Shown here: positions 7,283 to 33,350 of the stretch, one piece after another
Position numbering within the stretch: position 1 is the first letter of the stretch
How the letters are laid out: each line of letters begins with the position of its first letter
Source of the DNA: an uncultured Ruminococcus sp.
GTDB taxonomy: Bacteria > Bacillota > Clostridia > UBA1212 > UBA1255
DNA: 33,554 bases
Direction of reading: 5' to 3'
Assembly: GCA_902796205.1 (NCBI GenBank)
Contig: CADBOE010000115.1
Span: 1 to 33,554 of the forward strand
Notes under the pieces: model-generated
Told to the model about the DNA's origin: nothing
Seen by the model: only the letters and a program-made list of their open reading frames with translations
Databases searched by the model: none
Made by a program: the position numbers and the translations under genes

Positions 7283-7311
7283 ATTCTAACATAATGCCCG
7301 GCGGCAGTCAA
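7283..7311 (-). promoter_or_regulatory. Promoter of the membrane-protein gene
   Basis: Read on the minus strand, TTGACT (7311-7306), a 17-bp spacer and TAGAAT (7288-7283) form a good sigma-A promoter. Its -35 box ends 6 bp from the first unit of the tandem repeat array. Confidence 0.7.
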
Positions 7312-7317
7312 TATCCG

Positions 7318-7702
7318 TGCAACGGGGGACAGACCCCGGTTTTGACCCTGCCCCTGTGAGGATGCAACGGGGGACAGACCCCGGTTTTGACCCTGCCCCC
7401 GGGAGGATGCAACGGGGGACAGACCCCGGTTTTGACCCTGCCCCCGGGAAGGTGCAACGGGGGACAGACCCGGGTTTTGACCCTGTCCCCGGGAGGATGC
7501 AACGGGGGATAGACCCGGGTTTTGACCCTGTCCCCGGGAAGGTGCAACGGGGGACAGACCCGGGTTTTGACCCTGTCCCCGGGAGGACGCAACGGGGGAC
7601 AGACCCCGGTTTTGACCCTGTCCCCGGGAAGGTGCAACGGGGGACAGACCCGGGTTTTGACCCTGCCCCCGAGAGGATGCAACGGGGGACAGACCCGGGT
7701 TG
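7318..7702 (+). repeat. 45-bp tandem repeat array (8 full copies plus partial)
   Basis: Units start at 7318, 7363, 7408, 7453, 7498, 7543, 7588 and 7633, exactly 45 bp apart, with a partial ninth at 7678. Each begins TGCAACGGGGGACAGACCC, then GGTTTTGACCCTG and CCCCGGGAGGA. Several units contain GGGGACAG and CTGTCCCC as inverted halves, so each can form a hairpin. From the third unit on, the unit ends alternate between AGGA and AAGG, suggesting growth by 90-bp doublets. The array fills the space between two divergent promoters. Related copies occur at 13875-14133 and 32785-33009. Because 45 is a multiple of three, the array is open in several frames, but nothing supports coding. Confidence 0.95.
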
Positions 7703-7726: not shown

Positions 7727-7754
7727 TTGACAAATGCCGGCGGATGTGTATAAT
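7727..7754 (+). promoter_or_regulatory. Consensus promoter before the STAS pseudogene
   Basis: TTGACA (7727-7732), 16 bp, TATAAT (7749-7754): both hexamers match the sigma-A consensus perfectly, with TG upstream of the -10 box. It stands 25 bp after the end of the repeat array and 31 bp before the STAS start codon. Confidence 0.85.
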
Positions 7755-7785: not shown

Positions 7786-8088
7786 ATGCAGGCGACAGTC
7801 ACAAAAGACGGCGAAACAATTAAAGCCGCGATCTGCGGAAGGCTCGATACCGTAACAAGCGCGGAACTGAACGAGCAGTTGAAAAGCGCGGGGATCGACA
7901 ATTGCGATATTGACCTCGATTTTGTCGGGGTGGAGTATATTTAATCGGCCGGACTGCGTTTGCTCGTAGCGCTCCGCAAACAGGCAGACACGACGGGAAA
8001 CAGTATGACGGTCAGAAGAAATATCAACAGAGTTGTCCGCGAGGTGTTCCGCGTGGCAGGATTTGAAAAAGTATTCACGGTCGTTTAA
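7786..8088 (+). pseudogene. STAS-domain anti-sigma factor antagonist, interrupted by in-frame TAA
   Basis: The reading frame from ATG 7786 (AAAGGAGG ribosome site) encodes a 100-residue STAS domain of the SpoIIAA/anti-anti-sigma type: MQATVTKDGET, CGRLDTVTSAELNEQL, DLDFVGVEYI. A TAA stop occurs at 7942-7944 as codon 53, and the same frame then continues with SAGLRLLVALRKQ and ends at 8088 in GFEKVFTVV. Intact relatives read YISSAGLR here, so a single change of a Ser codon (TCA to TAA) explains the break. As written, only 52 residues would be made, lacking the phosphorylation/partner-binding loop and the last helices. It is either a recent pseudogene or an assembly error; TAA makes programmed recoding unlikely. 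Confidence 0.85.
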
Positions 8089-8166: not shown

Positions 8167-8418
8167 ATGAAAGCGACAAAATTCACCATTGGCCGAAAAC
8201 TGTTTCTCCTTTCATTGATACCGATCGCGGTGATGATCGCCGCGGCGCTCGTTGTGTCGTCGATGCTTTTCGACCGCAAGATCCGCCAGGACGCCCGCAA
8301 AGTGACGACGCAGGCCGCAGACAACACCGCCGCCGGACTCAACGTACTTTCGTTCCTGAAATATACCGACCGGTCCGTATCAGGCAGCCGCGACGCCGGC
8401 GGGACCGCGGAGGATTAA
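8167..8418 (+). CDS. Short membrane protein, possible truncated receptor N-terminus
   Basis: An 83-residue ORF starting with KFTIGRKLFLLSLIPIAVMIAAALVV, a typical N-terminal transmembrane helix of chemoreceptors or sensor proteins, then a stretch like the start of an extracellular helix (DRKIRQDARKVTTQAADNTAA). The last 25 residues look unlike a sensor and the frame stops 3 bp before recG. A GGAG site lies upstream of its ATG. It probably is the left-over start of a larger signalling gene next to the broken STAS gene, but a genuine small protein cannot be excluded. Confidence 0.5.
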   Translation: MKATKFTIGRKLFLLSLIPIAVMIAAALVVSSMLFDRKIRQDARKVTTQAADNTAAGLNVLSFLKYTDRSVSGSRDAGGTAED

Positions 8419-8421
8419 CGC

Positions 8422-10551
8422 ATGTCCGTCAGCGTTACGTTTCTGAAAGGCGTAAAAGGAAAGCGCCGGCAGCAGTTGAATGAACTCGGCGTCGAGACCG
8501 TCGACGATCTCGTGCGCCTCATGCCGCGGTATTACGAGGACAGGTCCGGTATCAGGAGCTGCTCGGAGCTTTCGGACGGTGCGGGCGCGACCGTGAAGGT
8601 CCGGATAATGCGTATATCGTTCAGGCAGATAAACAGGAGCAGGTCGGTGCTGAATCTCCTGTGCGAGGACGACACGGGCCGGATCGGCATATCGTTTTTC
8701 AATCAGAGATATATACGCGACAGATTTGAAAAGGGGCAGGAGGCTCTCTTCTTCGGAAAAGTTGTCCGCGGCTACAGGGGCGGCCTGGAAATGGTGAATC
8801 CGGAATTCGTGCTGCCGGAGGACGGCGTCATGCTGACCGACGGGGAAATAAAAGGCTTCAGCGGCGTTTATCCGGTTTATCCGCTTACAAAAGGGCTTTC
8901 CCAGAAAATGCTGCGGAAATTCATCGGCGAGGCGCTTTCGCTCGTGCCCGAATTTGCCGATCCGCTTCCCGAAAGCATAAAAAAAGAATATTCACTTATC
9001 CGGCTGAACGACGCGATCAGGCGGGTCCACAGGCCGGAAACGGTCGGCGACGCGGAAGAAGCGCGGCGGAGGCTCGCTTTTGACGAGCTTCTCGGGACAA
9101 GGCTCATGCTGCTGCTGATGAAGCAAAGCTATGCCGGCGGGGCCGGAGGCAACCGATTCAACGACGAACCGCTCACGCCCGCTCTCAGAAAGCTGCTCCC
9201 GTTCGAACTGACCGATTCGCAGGAGGCCGTCTGGCGCGATATTCAGGCGGATATGGCCGTAAACAGGCCGATGAACCGTCTGGTTATGGGCGACGTCGGC
9301 TCCGGCAAAACGGTTCTTGCCATGCTCGCCATTCTCCGCGCCGCCGGAAACGGTTTTCAGTCCGCGTACATGGCTCCGACCGAGGTCCTCGCCGAGCAGC
9401 ATTACGCCAATATCGCGCCAGTGTTCGGGAAGCTCGGCGTTTCCTGCGCGCTCCTCACGGGCGCCGTGACCGGGAAAAACAGGGCCGAGATCCTGGAGCG
9501 TATCGCCGACGGAACGCTGTTGTGCGTCATCGGCACGCACGCGCTCATTCAGCGCGGCGTCAGCTGGAACCGCCTCGGCCTCGCCGTTACCGACGAGCAG
9601 CACCGGTTCGGCGTGCGTCAGCGGGGGATGTTTTTTGAAAAATCAAAGGGCTCCGCGGTTCCCGACATACTTGTAATGACCGCGACTCCCATACCGCGCA
9701 CGCTCGGCATGATCCTTTACGGGGACATGGATATCTCGCGGGTGGAGACGCTTCCGACGGGAAGGAAGCCGATACAGACCTACCTTGACGACGGACGCCG
9801 GCGGGAGAGGATTTACCGCTGGGCCGCGGAGCTTGCCCGACAGGGAAGGCAGATCTATATCGTTCACGCCGCCATCGGAGACGAAAAGGGAGCGGACGGG
9901 GCTGACGGAGAGGAAGCGGAGGAAGACGCGGGGGTCACGACGGACGTTCTCTCCGCGACGGACAATTTTGCCGAAGCGTCGGGTACGTATTTTTCCGGGT
10001 TGACAACGGCGCTTCTGCACGGCCGCCTTCCCGACAGGGAAAAGAACGATATCATGCGCCGTTTTGCCGGAGGCGAAATCAGCGTGCTCTTTTCGACGAC
10101 CGTTATAGAGGTCGGCGTCGACGTGGCCAACGCGTGCCTGATGATCATAGAAAATTCCGAGCGTTTCGGCCTTTCGCAGCTTCACCAGCTGAGAGGCCGC
10201 GTAGGGCGCGGGAGCGAGCAATCATATTGCGTACTCCTGACGACGCATCATATAAACCCGGATCCGCCCGACGACGATCTTGTTTCCCGCCGTCTGCTGA
10301 CGCTGAGGGACTGCCTGAGCGGCGAAAAAATCGCCGAAGAGGATCTCAGGCTCCGCGGTCCGGGAGACTTTTTCGGCGTAAGCCAGCACGGCCTTCCGGC
10401 TTTTCATGCCGCGAATCTCTATACAGACGGAAAATTGCTGGAAATAACGGAAAATATTGCCGCCCGCATCGCCTCGGCGCCGGAAAACAGCGAATATTCG
10501 GAATATATCGACCACGTGCGAAAGCGTATGCCGGAGGCCGCCGTGCTCTGA
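8422..10551 (+). CDS. recG: ATP-dependent DNA helicase RecG
   Basis: RecG remodels stalled replication forks and branch-migrates Holliday junctions. The 709 residues cover the whole protein: an N-terminal helical part and wedge OB-fold (about 1-200), then helicase motifs. Walker A is GDVGSGKT with Lys296, the DExH box is DEQH (391-394) in VTDEQHRFGVRQRG, followed by MTATPIPRTL, LLHGRLP, STTVIEVGVDV and QLRGRVGRG, and the RecG C-terminal region LRLRGPGDFFG. One oddity is an acidic insert of about 25-30 residues (KGADGADGEEAEEDAG) after IYIVHAAIGD, where relatives have a shorter loop. The ATG at 8422 has GGAGG upstream, inside the end of the preceding small ORF. Confidence 0.97.
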   Translation: MSVSVTFLKGVKGKRRQQLNELGVETVDDLVRLMPRYYEDRSGIRSCSELSDGAGATVKVRIMRISFRQINRSRSVLNLLCEDDTGRIGISFFNQRYIRDRFEKGQEALFFGKVVRGYRGGLEMVNPEFVLPEDGVMLTDGEIKGFSGVYPVYPLTKGLSQKMLRKFIGEALSLVPEFADPLPESIKKEYSLIRLNDAIRRVHRPETVGDAEEARRRLAFDELLGTRLMLLLMKQSYAGGAGGNRFNDEPLTPALRKLLPFELTDSQEAVWRDIQADMAVNRPMNRLVMGDVGSGKTVLAMLAILRAAGNGFQSAYMAPTEVLAEQHYANIAPVFGKLGVSCALLTGAVTGKNRAEILERIADGTLLCVIGTHALIQRGVSWNRLGLAVTDEQHRFGVRQRGMFFEKSKGSAVPDILVMTATPIPRTLGMILYGDMDISRVETLPTGRKPIQTYLDDGRRRERIYRWAAELARQGRQIYIVHAAIGDEKGADGADGEEAEEDAGVTTDVLSATDNFAEASGTYFSGLTTALLHGRLPDREKNDIMRRFAGGEISVLFSTTVIEVGVDVANACLMIIENSERFGLSQLHQLRGRVGRGSEQSYCVLLTTHHINPDPPDDDLVSRRLLTLRDCLSGEKIAEEDLRLRGPGDFFGVSQHGLPAFHAANLYTDGKLLEITENIAARIASAPENSEYSEYIDHVRKRMPEAAVL

Positions 10552-11582: not shown

Positions 11583-12061
11583 TTTTTTCTGTTTACAAGA
11601 CAAAAAACGGCTGCCGCAGCGGCCGTGCCCGCGGCGAATCCGGCGAAGTCGATCACAACGTCGATGACTTCAGGGGAACGGCCGGGCGAAAAATATTGCA
11701 GCGTTTCGTCGGCAATTGCGGAGAGGAGCCCGAACGAGGTCAGCCAGCCGAAAGCCGGGAACGCGGCGGACGGCAGTTTTCCGCCTTTCATCTTCACGCG
11801 CAGCAGCACCGTCAGCGAAGACAGGACTCCGAGCAGGAGAAATTCGACGAAATGCGCGGCTTTTCTGACGAGATGATCCGTTATGCCCGGAAAAATATCC
11901 CGGAGCAGGGAAAGAAGCCGGCCGCTGTCGTCGGAAGAATCGGCGGCGGTTTTCAGCGAATTCGAGAAAAGGAAGAAAAGCCAGATAACGGTCAGGCAGA
12001 GCAGAATGATATTGACCGCGGTCCCGCGCCGGTACGTCCGGCTTTTCTCCCTCTGAAGCAT
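11579..12061 (-). CDS. VanZ-like membrane protein
   Basis: A 160-residue protein with four hydrophobic helices and the VanZ family signatures VRKAAHFVEFLLLG and ADETLQYFSPGRSPEVIDVVIDFAG. VanZ confers low-level teicoplanin resistance in enterococci, but most family members have no known role; here there are no vanHAX-type genes, so resistance should not be assumed. The ATG shares one base with the stop codon of the rhamnosidase-like gene and its stop overlaps the next start (GTGA), so all three genes are probably translated from one mRNA. Confidence 0.85.
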   Translation of the reverse strand: MLQREKSRTYRRGTAVNIILLCLTVIWLFFLFSNSLKTAADSSDDSGRLLSLLRDIFPGITDHLVRKAAHFVEFLLLGVLSSLTVLLRVKMKGGKLPSAAFPAFGWLTSFGLLSAIADETLQYFSPGRSPEVIDVVIDFAGFAAGTAAAAAVFCLVNRKK

Positions 12062-13788
12062 CAGCGAATTACCGTTATCTCTGCGGGAGCTTCGATCCTG
12101 GATACGATCTCGCCCTTCGTGTTGTATTTGTGAATAACGTGTATCGTGCCGTAAGGCGTCGGATAAGTGCCTTCCGCGAAGCGGAGATCCCCGAGCCTCG
12201 GAGCGATGCGGACGGTCTTGCAGCCGGGCTCAACGGGCGTGATTCCGAGCACGTATTTCGAGAGGAACGCGGCGGGGCCGGACGCCCAGCCGTGGCACAG
12301 GCTGTGGCGGAAGCCGACGTAGCAGTACGCGCCGTAATCGCCGTGAAGGTCTTTTACTCCCTCGGGGACGAGCTCGTCGATCCTGCCGGAGCCCTCGAGC
12401 CATTCGAGATTGAAGTCCTCCCAGAACGTTGTCGCTCCGCGGTCGAGCATCGCTCCCCAGAAATCGCGTATCATATCGAGGGCGGCGCCGGTCTCGTCCA
12501 GCTCGGCGAGAGCCTGAAGAACGTAGAAGCCGAAGAAAGTGGAAATGCGGTAGGCGCCGTCTTTTTTTATGACGTTGTCAGCCAGTGCGCGGGCCGCGGA
12601 GCCGTCCGCGATACCGGCGAGGATGAGCATTGCCGCCGCCTGCTTGTTGCCGTTCGGGTCGGGCATATGAGAGCGGAGCTTTTCCGAGGCCTCGCGGCAC
12701 ATTGCCGCCGCTTCGGCTTCGCCGAGCTCGTCGCACAGGAACGCTCCGGCGTCGAAGCACATTTTCAGCATACCCTGATAACCTGCGTGGATGGCGGCGG
12801 GATCGTTGTCGCTGGGCCAGTCGAGAAGGCGTCGGCCGGGGAGCTTTTCGCTGCCGTCGTTACCGACGTAATCGCGGAAAAATCCGAGAAGCTTTACGAG
12901 GTATTCGCGCTGCTCCGCCAAGTATTCCTTGTTTCCGTTCTGCATGTACCAGCCGTAATGGACGAGCACCCACCATACGGAATAGCCGGATATCCCGCAC
13001 ATCATGAGCGGAAGCGGAGATTCGTCGCGCGCCAGGTCGAGGCTCTTTTCGACGCTCGGATCGTGACCGAAAACGGCCTGGATGGTGGAGGTTTCGGGGT
13101 GAATGTCGCCGATCCACACGAGCCGGTCGCGCTTTATGCCGTCCCAGACGTATTCCTGCATGTTGAGGTGAACGGTGTACGCGGCGGTGTTCCAGATGCG
13201 GTCGAGCCTTGCGTCGTTTGAGTGGAACGAGCCCTTGTATTCGAGCTCGCGATATACGAATATGCCGTCGACGGCCATTATCCTGATCGAGGCACCCGGG
13301 TCGAGAAGGTCGATCCTGGCGAACCTGAATCCGGAAGGCCCGAGCTCAGGCATGCTGTAGTGGCCGACGTCGATAATCTGGTCGCGGTTAATGTGATCGT
13401 TCGTGGCGTTCTGCTTTCCGCCAAGCTCGGACATCGCCTCCTGGGCGGATTCGCCGAAGCGGACCCTCAGCTTCACGCGGGAGGGATTCGGGCTGTGAAT
13501 GAATATTTTCAGATTTCCGTGAAATTCCACGCCGTAATCGATGAGGATCGCCGCGGGCGAAAAACCGTCGCCTTCGGGACCGTTGGCCATTGTCATCATT
13601 TTCTGTATATTGAAGTGGATCTGTTCGGGATGAGGCTCGAGCAGGCATTCCTCTCCGGTGACGCCGGGCGTTTTCCAGAGAATACGCTTCGGCAGCATGA
13701 AGCGGCGAACGCGCGGATCGGGCTCGGTTCTGCAGAGCGTTTCGGGCGCACGGATCCCGGCGGGAACGAAGTTGGGATTCTGGTTCAT
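12061..13788 (-). CDS. GH78-like alpha-L-rhamnosidase, short form
   Basis: A 575-residue protein with an N-terminal beta-sandwich (about 1-185) and the (alpha/alpha)6 barrel of GH78 enzymes. The acid motif region reads DGIKRDRLVWIGD (216-228). The general acid Glu of classical GH78 enzymes seems to be replaced by Asp221. The base region GATTFWED keeps Glu457. The C-terminus has the beta domain typical of the family (GWASGPAAFLSKYVLGITPVEPGCKTVRIAP). No signal peptide, so it probably cleaves imported rhamnosides. It is much shorter than the two other GH78-like proteins in the window. AGGAGGT lies 5 bp before the ATG, and a promoter at 13823-13852 precedes it. Confidence 0.85.
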   Translation of the reverse strand: MNQNPNFVPAGIRAPETLCRTEPDPRVRRFMLPKRILWKTPGVTGEECLLEPHPEQIHFNIQKMMTMANGPEGDGFSPAAILIDYGVEFHGNLKIFIHSPNPSRVKLRVRFGESAQEAMSELGGKQNATNDHINRDQIIDVGHYSMPELGPSGFRFARIDLLDPGASIRIMAVDGIFVYRELEYKGSFHSNDARLDRIWNTAAYTVHLNMQEYVWDGIKRDRLVWIGDIHPETSTIQAVFGHDPSVEKSLDLARDESPLPLMMCGISGYSVWWVLVHYGWYMQNGNKEYLAEQREYLVKLLGFFRDYVGNDGSEKLPGRRLLDWPSDNDPAAIHAGYQGMLKMCFDAGAFLCDELGEAEAAAMCREASEKLRSHMPDPNGNKQAAAMLILAGIADGSAARALADNVIKKDGAYRISTFFGFYVLQALAELDETGAALDMIRDFWGAMLDRGATTFWEDFNLEWLEGSGRIDELVPEGVKDLHGDYGAYCYVGFRHSLCHGWASGPAAFLSKYVLGITPVEPGCKTVRIAPRLGDLRFAEGTYPTPYGTIHVIHKYNTKGEIVSRIEAPAEITVIR

Positions 13789-13822: not shown

Positions 13823-13852
13823 ATGCTAACACTTTTGCGCGGTCGTTGTCAA
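13823..13852 (-). promoter_or_regulatory. Promoter of the short GH78-like gene
   Basis: On the minus strand TTGACA (13852-13847), 18 bp, TAGCAT (13828-13823). The -35 box is perfect and the -10 box matches four of six bases. The second repeat array begins 22 bp beyond the -35 box. Confidence 0.6.
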
Positions 13853-13874
13853 CGGATTTGTGCCCGTTCCGGGG

Positions 13875-14133
13875 CTGTCCCCCGTTGCATCTTTGCCAGG
13901 GACAGAAGGCGAAACGAGGGTCTGTCCCCCGTTGCATCTTTGCCGGGGACAGTGGTGAAACGAGGGTCTGTCCCCCGTTGCATCTTTGCCGGGGACAGAG
14001 GGCGAAACGAGGGTCTGTCCCCCGTTGCATTTTTGCCGGGGACAGAAGGTGAAACGAGGGTCTGTCCCCCGTTGCATTTTTGCCGGGGACAGAGGGCGAA
14101 ACGAGGGTCTGTCCCCCGTTGCATGTCCCCGGG
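13875..14133 (-). repeat. 46/47-bp tandem repeat array, second member of the family
   Basis: On the plus strand the phrase CTGTCCCCCGTTGCAT recurs at 13875, 13922, 13968, 14015, 14062 and 14109, giving spacings of 47, 46, 47, 47 and 47. Read on the minus strand each unit starts TGCAACGGGGGACAGACCC, the same head as the array at 7318, then CTCGTTTCGCC and CTGTCCCCGGCAAA. GGGGACAGA and TCTGTCCCC form 8 to 9-bp stems around a loop that varies between units. It sits between the promoter of the minus-strand rhamnosidase-like gene and that of the plus-strand PHP gene. No coding potential is credited. Confidence 0.95.
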
Positions 14134-14179: not shown

Positions 14180-14209
14180 TAGACACGGGGCGCCCGCGGT
14201 CGCTATAAT
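14180..14209 (+). promoter_or_regulatory. Promoter of the PHP-domain gene
   Basis: TAGACA (14180-14185), 18 bp, and a perfect TATAAT (14204-14209). Transcription would start near 14216 and leave a leader of about 150 nt before the start codon at 14365. Confidence 0.7.
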
Positions 14210-14262: not shown

Positions 14263-14363
14263 GTTTTCCACAGCGAGACTGTTGAAAACCCGCGGGCGGT
14301 TGTGGAAAAACCTGCGGGAAATTCCGGGGAAAGTGTGGAAAATAAAAAGGAAAAGGTGGAAAA
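14263..14363 (+). promoter_or_regulatory. Leader with repeated TGTGGAAAA motifs and dyad
   Basis: The leader has TTTTCCACA at 14264-14272 and TGTGGAAAA at 14301-14309 and 14334-14342, plus GGTGGAAAA at 14355-14363 next to the start codon. The first two form an inverted repeat that could fold as a hairpin or serve as a protein-binding dyad. The 9-mer resembles a DnaA box, but nothing else here suggests an origin. A similar set precedes the gene starting at 27547. Confidence 0.55.
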
Positions 14364-14364
14364 T

Positions 14365-15318
14365 ATGAGGAAATATCTGCTGCCGGCGGACGGGAAGCCG
14401 ATCAAGGCAAATCTCCATTGTCACAGTACGTATTCGGACGGGAAATATACCGTCGAACATCTGAAGAAAATTTATGAAGAAAAAGGTTACGGCGTGGTCG
14501 CTTTTTCGGATCACAACCGTCTTCTTCCGCACCCGGAGCTCAGGAGCGACGGGTTCGTCCCGCTCACCGCGACAGAGATCGACGTCAACGGGCCGGAGGA
14601 GCGCACGTATCATCTTAATTTCTTTTCGGCGGATCCGGACAGGACCGAATTCCCGGAGATAGACAGGATTTACGGCGTCGACGGAGTTAACGAAATAATC
14701 CGCAGAGGCAACGAGGCCGGCTTTCTCTGTCAGTACAACCACCCCCGCTGGTCGCTCCAGACGCCCGAGGACTTCACCGGACTGCGCGGACTCTGGGGTT
14801 TTGAAGTTTTCAACACCGGCTGCGAGGTGTCGATGTGCGACGGCTGGGGAGATTACGAATACGAAGTGATGTGCCGGGACGGGAAGGAACTGCCGGTCGC
14901 CGTTGCCACCGACGACAATCACAACTGGCCGGTAGAGCCGGGCGATGCGGGCGATCCCTACGACGACTCGTTCATGGGCTGGACGACGATAATTGCTCCC
15001 GAGCTGTCGTATTCCGCGGTCATTGACGCGATGAAAAAAGGCAACTGCTACGCGACCACGGGACCGGAAATAACCGGACTTTACGTCGAAAACGAGAAAC
15101 TTCACGTCGAATGTACGCCCGCGAAGGCAATATTCATACGTTTTGAGAGAAGACGTTCGGACTACAGGAGAAGCAACGGCCGCGACATCACCGGCGCCGA
15201 ATTCGACGTCAGCGGCGACTACCGGTTTTTCCGCCTTGAGATACACGACGGCGAGGGCAACAAGGCGATGACAAGGGCCTACAGCCGCGACGAGATATAC
15301 GGAAATGCCGACCGCTGA
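14365..15318 (+). CDS. PHP-domain metal-dependent phosphoesterase
   Basis: A 317-residue protein of the PHP superfamily, whose members hydrolyse phosphoesters (for example nucleoside 3',5'-bisphosphate or histidinol phosphate) with two or three metal ions. Metal ligands visible are His18-Cys-His20 in NLHCHSTYSDG, Asp49-His50 in AFSDHN, Glu71 in TATEID, a later His in CQYNHPRW and a DDNH cluster in VATDDNHNW. The C-terminal 80 residues look like a beta domain that is common on PHP proteins encoded near glycoside utilisation genes. The ATG at 14365 is preferred because AAGGTGG lies 6 bp upstream; the frame is open from a GTG at 14302. Confidence 0.85.
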   Translation: MRKYLLPADGKPIKANLHCHSTYSDGKYTVEHLKKIYEEKGYGVVAFSDHNRLLPHPELRSDGFVPLTATEIDVNGPEERTYHLNFFSADPDRTEFPEIDRIYGVDGVNEIIRRGNEAGFLCQYNHPRWSLQTPEDFTGLRGLWGFEVFNTGCEVSMCDGWGDYEYEVMCRDGKELPVAVATDDNHNWPVEPGDAGDPYDDSFMGWTTIIAPELSYSAVIDAMKKGNCYATTGPEITGLYVENEKLHVECTPAKAIFIRFERRRSDYRRSNGRDITGAEFDVSGDYRFFRLEIHDGEGNKAMTRAYSRDEIYGNADR

Positions 15319-32784: not shown

Positions 32785-33009
32785 TGCAACGGGGGACATG
32801 CAACGGGGGACAGACCCGGGTTGCGGGGTTCATCCTCGTTGATGCCGAAATGGCGAAAGTCGTTTATTTGCAAGGTTTTTTCGGTTTTATTTCCCGATAT
32901 TTCCTTAAATTTCCCGAAAATTCCCGGGCACGGATGCGACTGCAACTGGTGGGGCAACGGGGGACAGGGATGCGACTGCAACTGCAACTGATGGGGCAAC
33001 GGGGGACAG
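32785..33009 (+). repeat. Third, scattered set of the CAACGGGGGACA repeats
   Basis: The head of the repeat family occurs twice in tandem near 32785-32818 (14 bp apart) and twice more within direct repeats at 32934-32967 and 32970-33009. The direct repeats share ATGCGACTGCAACTG followed by TGGGGCAACGGGGGACAG; the second has an extra CAACTG. Between them is an AT-rich stretch with three ATTTCCC motifs (about 32890-32925). Again the set lies between divergent genes (pyr operon and cas9). Shorter and more degraded than the first two arrays. Confidence 0.85.
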
Positions 33010-33350
33010 ACCCGGGTTTCCTGACGGGTGATTTCAGCTGCATTTGGGCAAAAACGGCATCTGCGGCTGAAATTTCAGAATGGTTTGGTTTCAGCTGCAT
33101 TCCGCCTCACAGCACAAAAGACAACATAAAACGCGGTACAAACCAAAGAATCCTAAAAACCACCAAAACGACTCGATTCATAAATCCGAAGCTGCACTCA
33201 AAACAGCTTAAACCCACTCAAAAATGAAATGGATTTTTCGGTATTTCGCTTGAATGACTTTCTTATATGAACATCGTAAAAAATCGTTGCGAAAAAAAAC
33301 AAAGATATGTTAAAATCCCAAAGTCAGCAGGAACAAACTGCGCACAAAAT
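33010..33350. other. AT-rich intergenic region without a gene
   Basis: No credible gene. TTTCAGCTGCATT occurs twice (about 33033 and 33090) with an inverted partner GCGGCTGAAAT between. From about 33100 the sequence becomes A/T-rich, unlike the rest of the window, and leads into the CRISPR-associated segment. Confidence 0.6.

Follow-up and report, generated by a model that had tools for sequence, protein, structure and literature searches.

Tandem arrays of a REP-like palindrome between divergent promoters in an uncultured Ruminococcus, with a probable link to a TIRYT/RAYT-type transposase

The tandem arrays that separate divergent promoters in this DNA are probably amplified REP-like palindromes that are linked to a TIRYT/RAYT transposase, were spread by it and survive mainly in the untranscribed spacer of one lineage; we assign this reading a probability of about 0.6. 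The window, by which we mean the whole analysed stretch of 33,554 nucleotides, is contig C115 of a 2.06-Mb, 241-contig genome (G000) that is 88.6% complete. REP-like repeats have for the most part been accounted for by what they do at transcript 3' ends. The repeat described here occupies more than half of the divergent spacers of G000 and almost never convergent ones, while it is unbiased in a sister species (G002), a natural contrast which allows one to ask whether placement stems from insertion, from purging of transcripts or from use as a promoter insulator.

Results

Array 1 (7318-7701) has a period of exactly 45 bp, 8.5 copies and 92% matches according to TRF, and a unit-by-unit listing resolves nine heads, TGCAACGGGGGACAGACCC, with a partial inverted half, CCTG(T/C)CCCC, in each unit (Table 1). 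The initial annotation had placed this 45-bp array between two divergent promoters at distances of 6 bp and 25 bp, and TRF together with a promoter scan confirmed both the position and the gaps. Promoters are consensus matches throughout, and shuffling predicts 0.2 promoter-like sites at array 1. The same layout had been proposed to recur at 13875-14133, which is borne out by array 2 (13871-14124 by TRF; period 47, 5.4 copies): it sits between the two promoters of the next divergent pair and is made of units of the array-1 type, inverted relative to array 1. A third annotated set is also present, but not as a regular array; it comprises two good heads and degenerate ones in a 0.9-kb spacer that reaches the contig end, on the upstream side of a run of minus-strand genes that includes a DHODB-type subunit.

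Table 1. Repeat arrays, promoters and neighbouring genes in the window
Feature	Position	Strand	Basis
Gene left of array 1, 317 aa	6289..7242	-	Coding model; no Pfam match
Promoter of minus-strand gene, TTGACT-17-TAGAAT	7283..7311	-	Consensus match; 6 bp from array 1
Array 1, nine heads TGCAACGGGGGACAGACCC in tandem REP-like units of 45 bp	7318..7701	+	TRF, unit listing, genome counts
Promoter of plus-strand operon, TTGACA-16-TATAAT	7727..7754	+	Consensus match; 25 bp from array 1
First gene right of array 1, STAS-like (anti-sigma-antagonist) frame	7786..7944	+	Motif; translation
Gene left of array 2, alpha-L-rhamnosidase-like	12061..13788	-	PF17389/PF17390
Promoter of minus-strand gene by array 2, TTGACA-18-TAGCAT	13823..13852	-	Consensus match
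Array 2, 47-bp units, six inverted heads	13871..14133	-	TRF, unit listing
Promoter of plus-strand gene by array 2, TAGACA-18-TATAAT	14180..14209	+	Consensus match
Gene right of array 2, PHP-domain protein	14302..15318	+	Pfam
Third set, irregular, good heads at 32800 and 32996 plus degenerate copies	32785..33018	+	Head search

Two observations concern the genes to the right of array 1. The STAS-like piece of 52 aa is named from its motif alone and had no match in a Pfam search; its frame continues (7786-8085, plus strand) and reads VEYI*SAGLRLLVALRK, with an in-frame TAA at 7942-7944 inside the conserved motif that reflects a genuine nonsense mutation or else a mistake in the assembly. Further 3', an 83-aa frame with one apparent membrane segment (8167-8418, plus strand) directly precedes recG (8422-10551, plus strand) and could represent a sensor or phosphatase gene that has been truncated.

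About 25 nt long, the repeat is a near-palindrome built around the core GGGGACAG. Aligned copies give the consensus (T/G)GCAAC(G/C)GGGGACAGACCC(C/G)(G/C)GTT, which can also be given as TGCAAC(G/C)GGGGACAGACCC(C/G)GGTTt and is followed by a variable spacer. Positions 22-24 (GTT) are nearly invariant though they lie outside the search pattern, and they pair with AAC at the head; the palindrome is fuller in G002 (GAAACGGGGGACAGACCCCCGTTTC). Opposed orientations of GGGGACAG recur often at a separation of 22-24 bp, which makes many of the units small inverted pairs, and an inverted CTGTCCCC follows downstream in 51 of 205 units where 1.4 would be expected. The position-wise consensus upstream of the palindrome holds no GTAG next to the hairpin. 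Folding of single units exceeds that of shuffled sequences by a modest margin (z -1.1 to -1.9). Strict conservation of the hairpin by covariation was considered and rejected: arm positions 19-21 vary without compensation. What stays constant from array to array is therefore the primary sequence of the head, over 24 nt, whereas the spacers diverge. Spacers have an identity of 0.65 inside an array and 0.53 across arrays, a difference that points to local tandem growth. Clusters contain up to 9 copies, and a period of 45-47 bp is common in this genome. A regular repeat with a constant period could also be read as a known structured RNA or a CRISPR array, which we consider extremely unlikely given that the window has no match in Rfam, that the spacers of any one array are near-identical and that the units lie outside predicted transcripts.

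Across G000, TGCAACGGGGGACAGACCC has 348 matches at no more than one mismatch and a reversed-pattern control has 0, so the array is not a product of chance. Only 9 of 350 sampled copies are genic, which makes the repeat a high-copy, extragenic element. The 12-mer GGGGACAGACCC occurs 364 times in G000, 62 times in G002, 114 times in G003 and 129 times in G004; three other members of the genus contain 0-2 copies, as do other genera of the family. This distribution, with abundance in some genus members and next to nothing outside the genus, identifies the family as a genus-level radiation. Exact matches to the repeat sequence in the literature were found only in papers on unrelated subjects.

We then turn to placement, for which the statistics cover two species, G000 and G002. 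Intergenic regions of at least 60 bp in 959 kb of G000 were classified with a hexamer gene caller trained on this material, with repeats masked. The annotation had proposed a promoter-proximal preference for divergent spacers, to be checked by tabulating gene orientation genome-wide, and in G000 the preference holds: repeats occur in 26 of 46 divergent, 24 of 206 co-directional and 3 of 53 convergent regions, rather than equally often in all classes, and the effect of orientation class persists in a logistic regression that includes length (p=2e-5). Expressed per kb of spacer, copies number 1.56, 0.53 and 0.30, respectively (chi-square against spacer length, p=3e-5; Fisher test of divergent against convergent, p=2e-8). 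The first sampled contigs had been picked for holding copies, and contigs taken regardless of repeats show the same trend (7/19 divergent, 7/108 co-directional, 1/23 convergent). Neither the threshold of the gene caller nor a stricter definition of a copy changes the bias. The G000 assembly is fragmented at the repeats themselves, so that 136 of the 350 copies sampled sit at the end of a contig, and seven sampled contigs consisted of N; analysed separately, contig-edge copies (29 on the 5' side, 15 on the 3' side) are no different from repeat-free edges (38:20).

The arrays of G000 are located upstream of predicted promoters and outside predicted transcripts. A significant promoter lies between repeat and gene in 62 of the 73 5' flanks with room for one, and for co-directional flanks this is the case in 17 of 21 with a repeat (81%) versus 58 of 183 repeat-free controls (32%; p=1.7e-5). 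Terminator-like sites are enriched in 3' flanks (7/24 vs 30/362, p=0.004). The preference described for REP/BIME-type elements, for unidirectional or convergent spacers near 3' ends, was thus not observed, given the divergent preference in G000 and none in G002.

Indeed, the same repeat shows no orientation bias in G002, where the 19, 6 and 3 occupied regions are those that length predicts (p=0.93-0.95), nor an association with promoters (7/17 flanks vs 46/127), and copies adjoin stop codons without bias. The two species differ in their divergent share (p=0.018). The element is therefore not bound to promoter-proximal placement, and the effect in G000 is lineage-specific.

This comparison bears on a reading in which placement reflects targeting, that is, the transposase or a single-stranded intermediate enters open or negatively supercoiled DNA upstream of active promoters. 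The promoter-upstream position in divergent and co-directional spacers alike is in line with such a preference; G002, however, has none despite an intact linked transposase (see below). Moreover, single-strand insertion of the IS200/IS605 type is expected to give a strand-biased orientation, and there is no leading/lagging bias in G000 or G002. We regard targeting as improbable, and the annotated suggestion of a mobile repeat that intrinsically targets promoters is not supported.

A second possibility is that the heads are operator sites for a transcription factor controlling many promoters. Conservation of the head across arrays with diverging spacers, and the common 45-47-bp period, would suit this idea, yet there are hundreds of sites at unrelated genes, they lie at widely varying distances and orientations relative to promoters, and the same head is found in G002 next to stop codons as well as alongside the gene for a transposase, all of which makes an operator array very unlikely.

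Orthologous spacers provide information on the age of the copies. The spacer orthologous to that of array 2 contains a single GGGGTCTGTCCCC hairpin in G003 and G004 versus six units in G000, and this hairpin lies between both genes, not far from a conserved TTGTCAACG (-35) box. Three G002 spacers that are orthologous to repeat-bearing ones are without the element, and they are too diverged to align, so empty-site junctions are not visible. Together, these cases imply copies of mixed age, some probably old and shared and others lineage-specific.

The shared site is also one of the arguments for a third reading, namely a co-opted insulator or supercoil sink, in which palindrome arrays take up negative supercoils, for instance by extruding cruciforms, or serve as binding sites for a nucleoid protein, and thereby decouple the promoters. 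The strong preference of G000 for divergent and promoter-upstream spacers, the predominance of multi-copy clusters and the hairpin available to each unit are compatible with this role. Against it stand the modest folding of single units, the uncompensated arm positions, the unbiased sister species with the same repeat, the 20 of 46 divergent spacers that lack the repeat and the fact that no protein partner is known. We think such co-option unlikely, and the fuller version, that the G000 lineage domesticated the palindrome into an insulator or a sink for negative supercoils throughout the genome, with 45-47-bp arrays at more than half of the divergent promoter pairs, a little less likely still.

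The evidence that the palindrome is connected to a transposase comes from relatives and from G000. A profile search detected PF01797 in five of six same-genus relatives. G002 carries an intact RAYT/TIRYT gene (L085:4524-5306, minus strand) with a Y1_Tnp match of 2.5e-14 and the motifs HVH and YIHRNPVKA; C-terminal matches to HTH_38 and HTH_23 are weak and sub-threshold, and the match to NCBIfam REP_Tyr_transpos is below threshold. Directly upstream of this gene, two copies of the exact repeat form an inverted pair, which folds at -31.4 kcal/mol (z=-7.2). Palindromes with GGGGACAG occur within about 425 bp upstream of all seven genus RAYTs for which upstream sequence is present, compared with a density of 0.16 per kb in G002 stretches elsewhere.

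TIRYT genes are described as having TIRs that share GGGGWSAS (PMC3733652), and most correspond to subclass 2.1 tnpA-REP genes with C-terminal HTH domains (PMC6006769). G002 has both GGGGWSAS inverted repeats by its Y1 gene and the combination of HUH, catalytic Tyr and C-terminal HTH (HVH, YIH.NPVK and the sub-threshold HTH_23/HTH_38). Judged by motifs and domains, the gene and its repeats match the TIRYT class, with an HUH-tyrosine transposase of a subclass 2.1-like kind.

G000 itself offers a gene fragment with a 3'-side pair only. In this 88.6% complete genome no complete RAYT and no match to Y1_Tnp (PF01797) were seen, but a search with the G002 protein recovered a C-terminal RAYT fragment of 77-80 aa with a score of 6.5e-16 (L076 12549-12791, minus strand), which the end of contig C26 cuts short. 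The fragment has an HTH-type tail by homology, and some 280 bp past its stop lies a pair of inverted repeats. With 50% identity to G001 and 44% to G002, its nearest relative is not clearly the repeat-carrying RAYT of G002. As only this piece is seen in G000, any present mobility is hypothetical.

Separately, several genus RAYTs (L086, L087, L088-L092) are accompanied by GGGGACAG palindrome variants of their own, for example GGGGACAGGTACC and GGGGACAGGTCCG, which suggests several repeat-transposase pairs side by side.

Discussion

We favour a history in which the transposase would have spread single elements, some of which would have seeded spacers before the species split and then grown locally by tandem duplication. 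Copies may have persisted mainly in untranscribed spacer, either between divergent promoters or from a terminator to the next promoter, because G+C-rich hairpin arrays in transcripts or at gene ends would be selected against or lost. We propose this purging from transcripts as the explanation of placement that requires the least machinery.

The best match among known systems are the GGGGWSAS TIRs of TIRYT genes (PMC3733652, PMC6006769), which the core GGGGACAG fits and whose inverted pairs likewise enclose a Y1/HUH transposase that has an HTH at its C-terminus; here, too, copies occur in dimers and clusters. However, TIRYT TIR families are described as only moderately abundant (PMC3733652) and no REP-like sequences were found near subclass 2.1 genes (PMC6006769), whereas the present family has more than 360 copies, mostly in head-to-tail arrays, in a Clostridia lineage. 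High-copy extragenic palindromes, inverted pairs, tandem clusters and a linked HUH-tyrosine transposase are in turn features of REP/BIME and REPIN elements with their RAYTs in E. coli and Pseudomonas, and REPs form ordered tandem clusters (PMC3116915). Unlike these, our repeat has no GTAG tag and is placed in the opposite way: most REPs are found in unidirectional and convergent spacers, by 3' ends (PMC3733652), and ours mainly between divergent promoters, which is a real departure from known REPs.

Finally, an array in Bacillus marasmi (L056 1-400, at a contig start) consists of tandem units of about 39 bp, GCAACGGGGGAC(A/T)G(A/G)C and also ATGCAACGGGGGAC(A/T)GGC/ACCCC, that are very like the G000 repeat, although unit length and spacer differ and Bacillus is unrelated.
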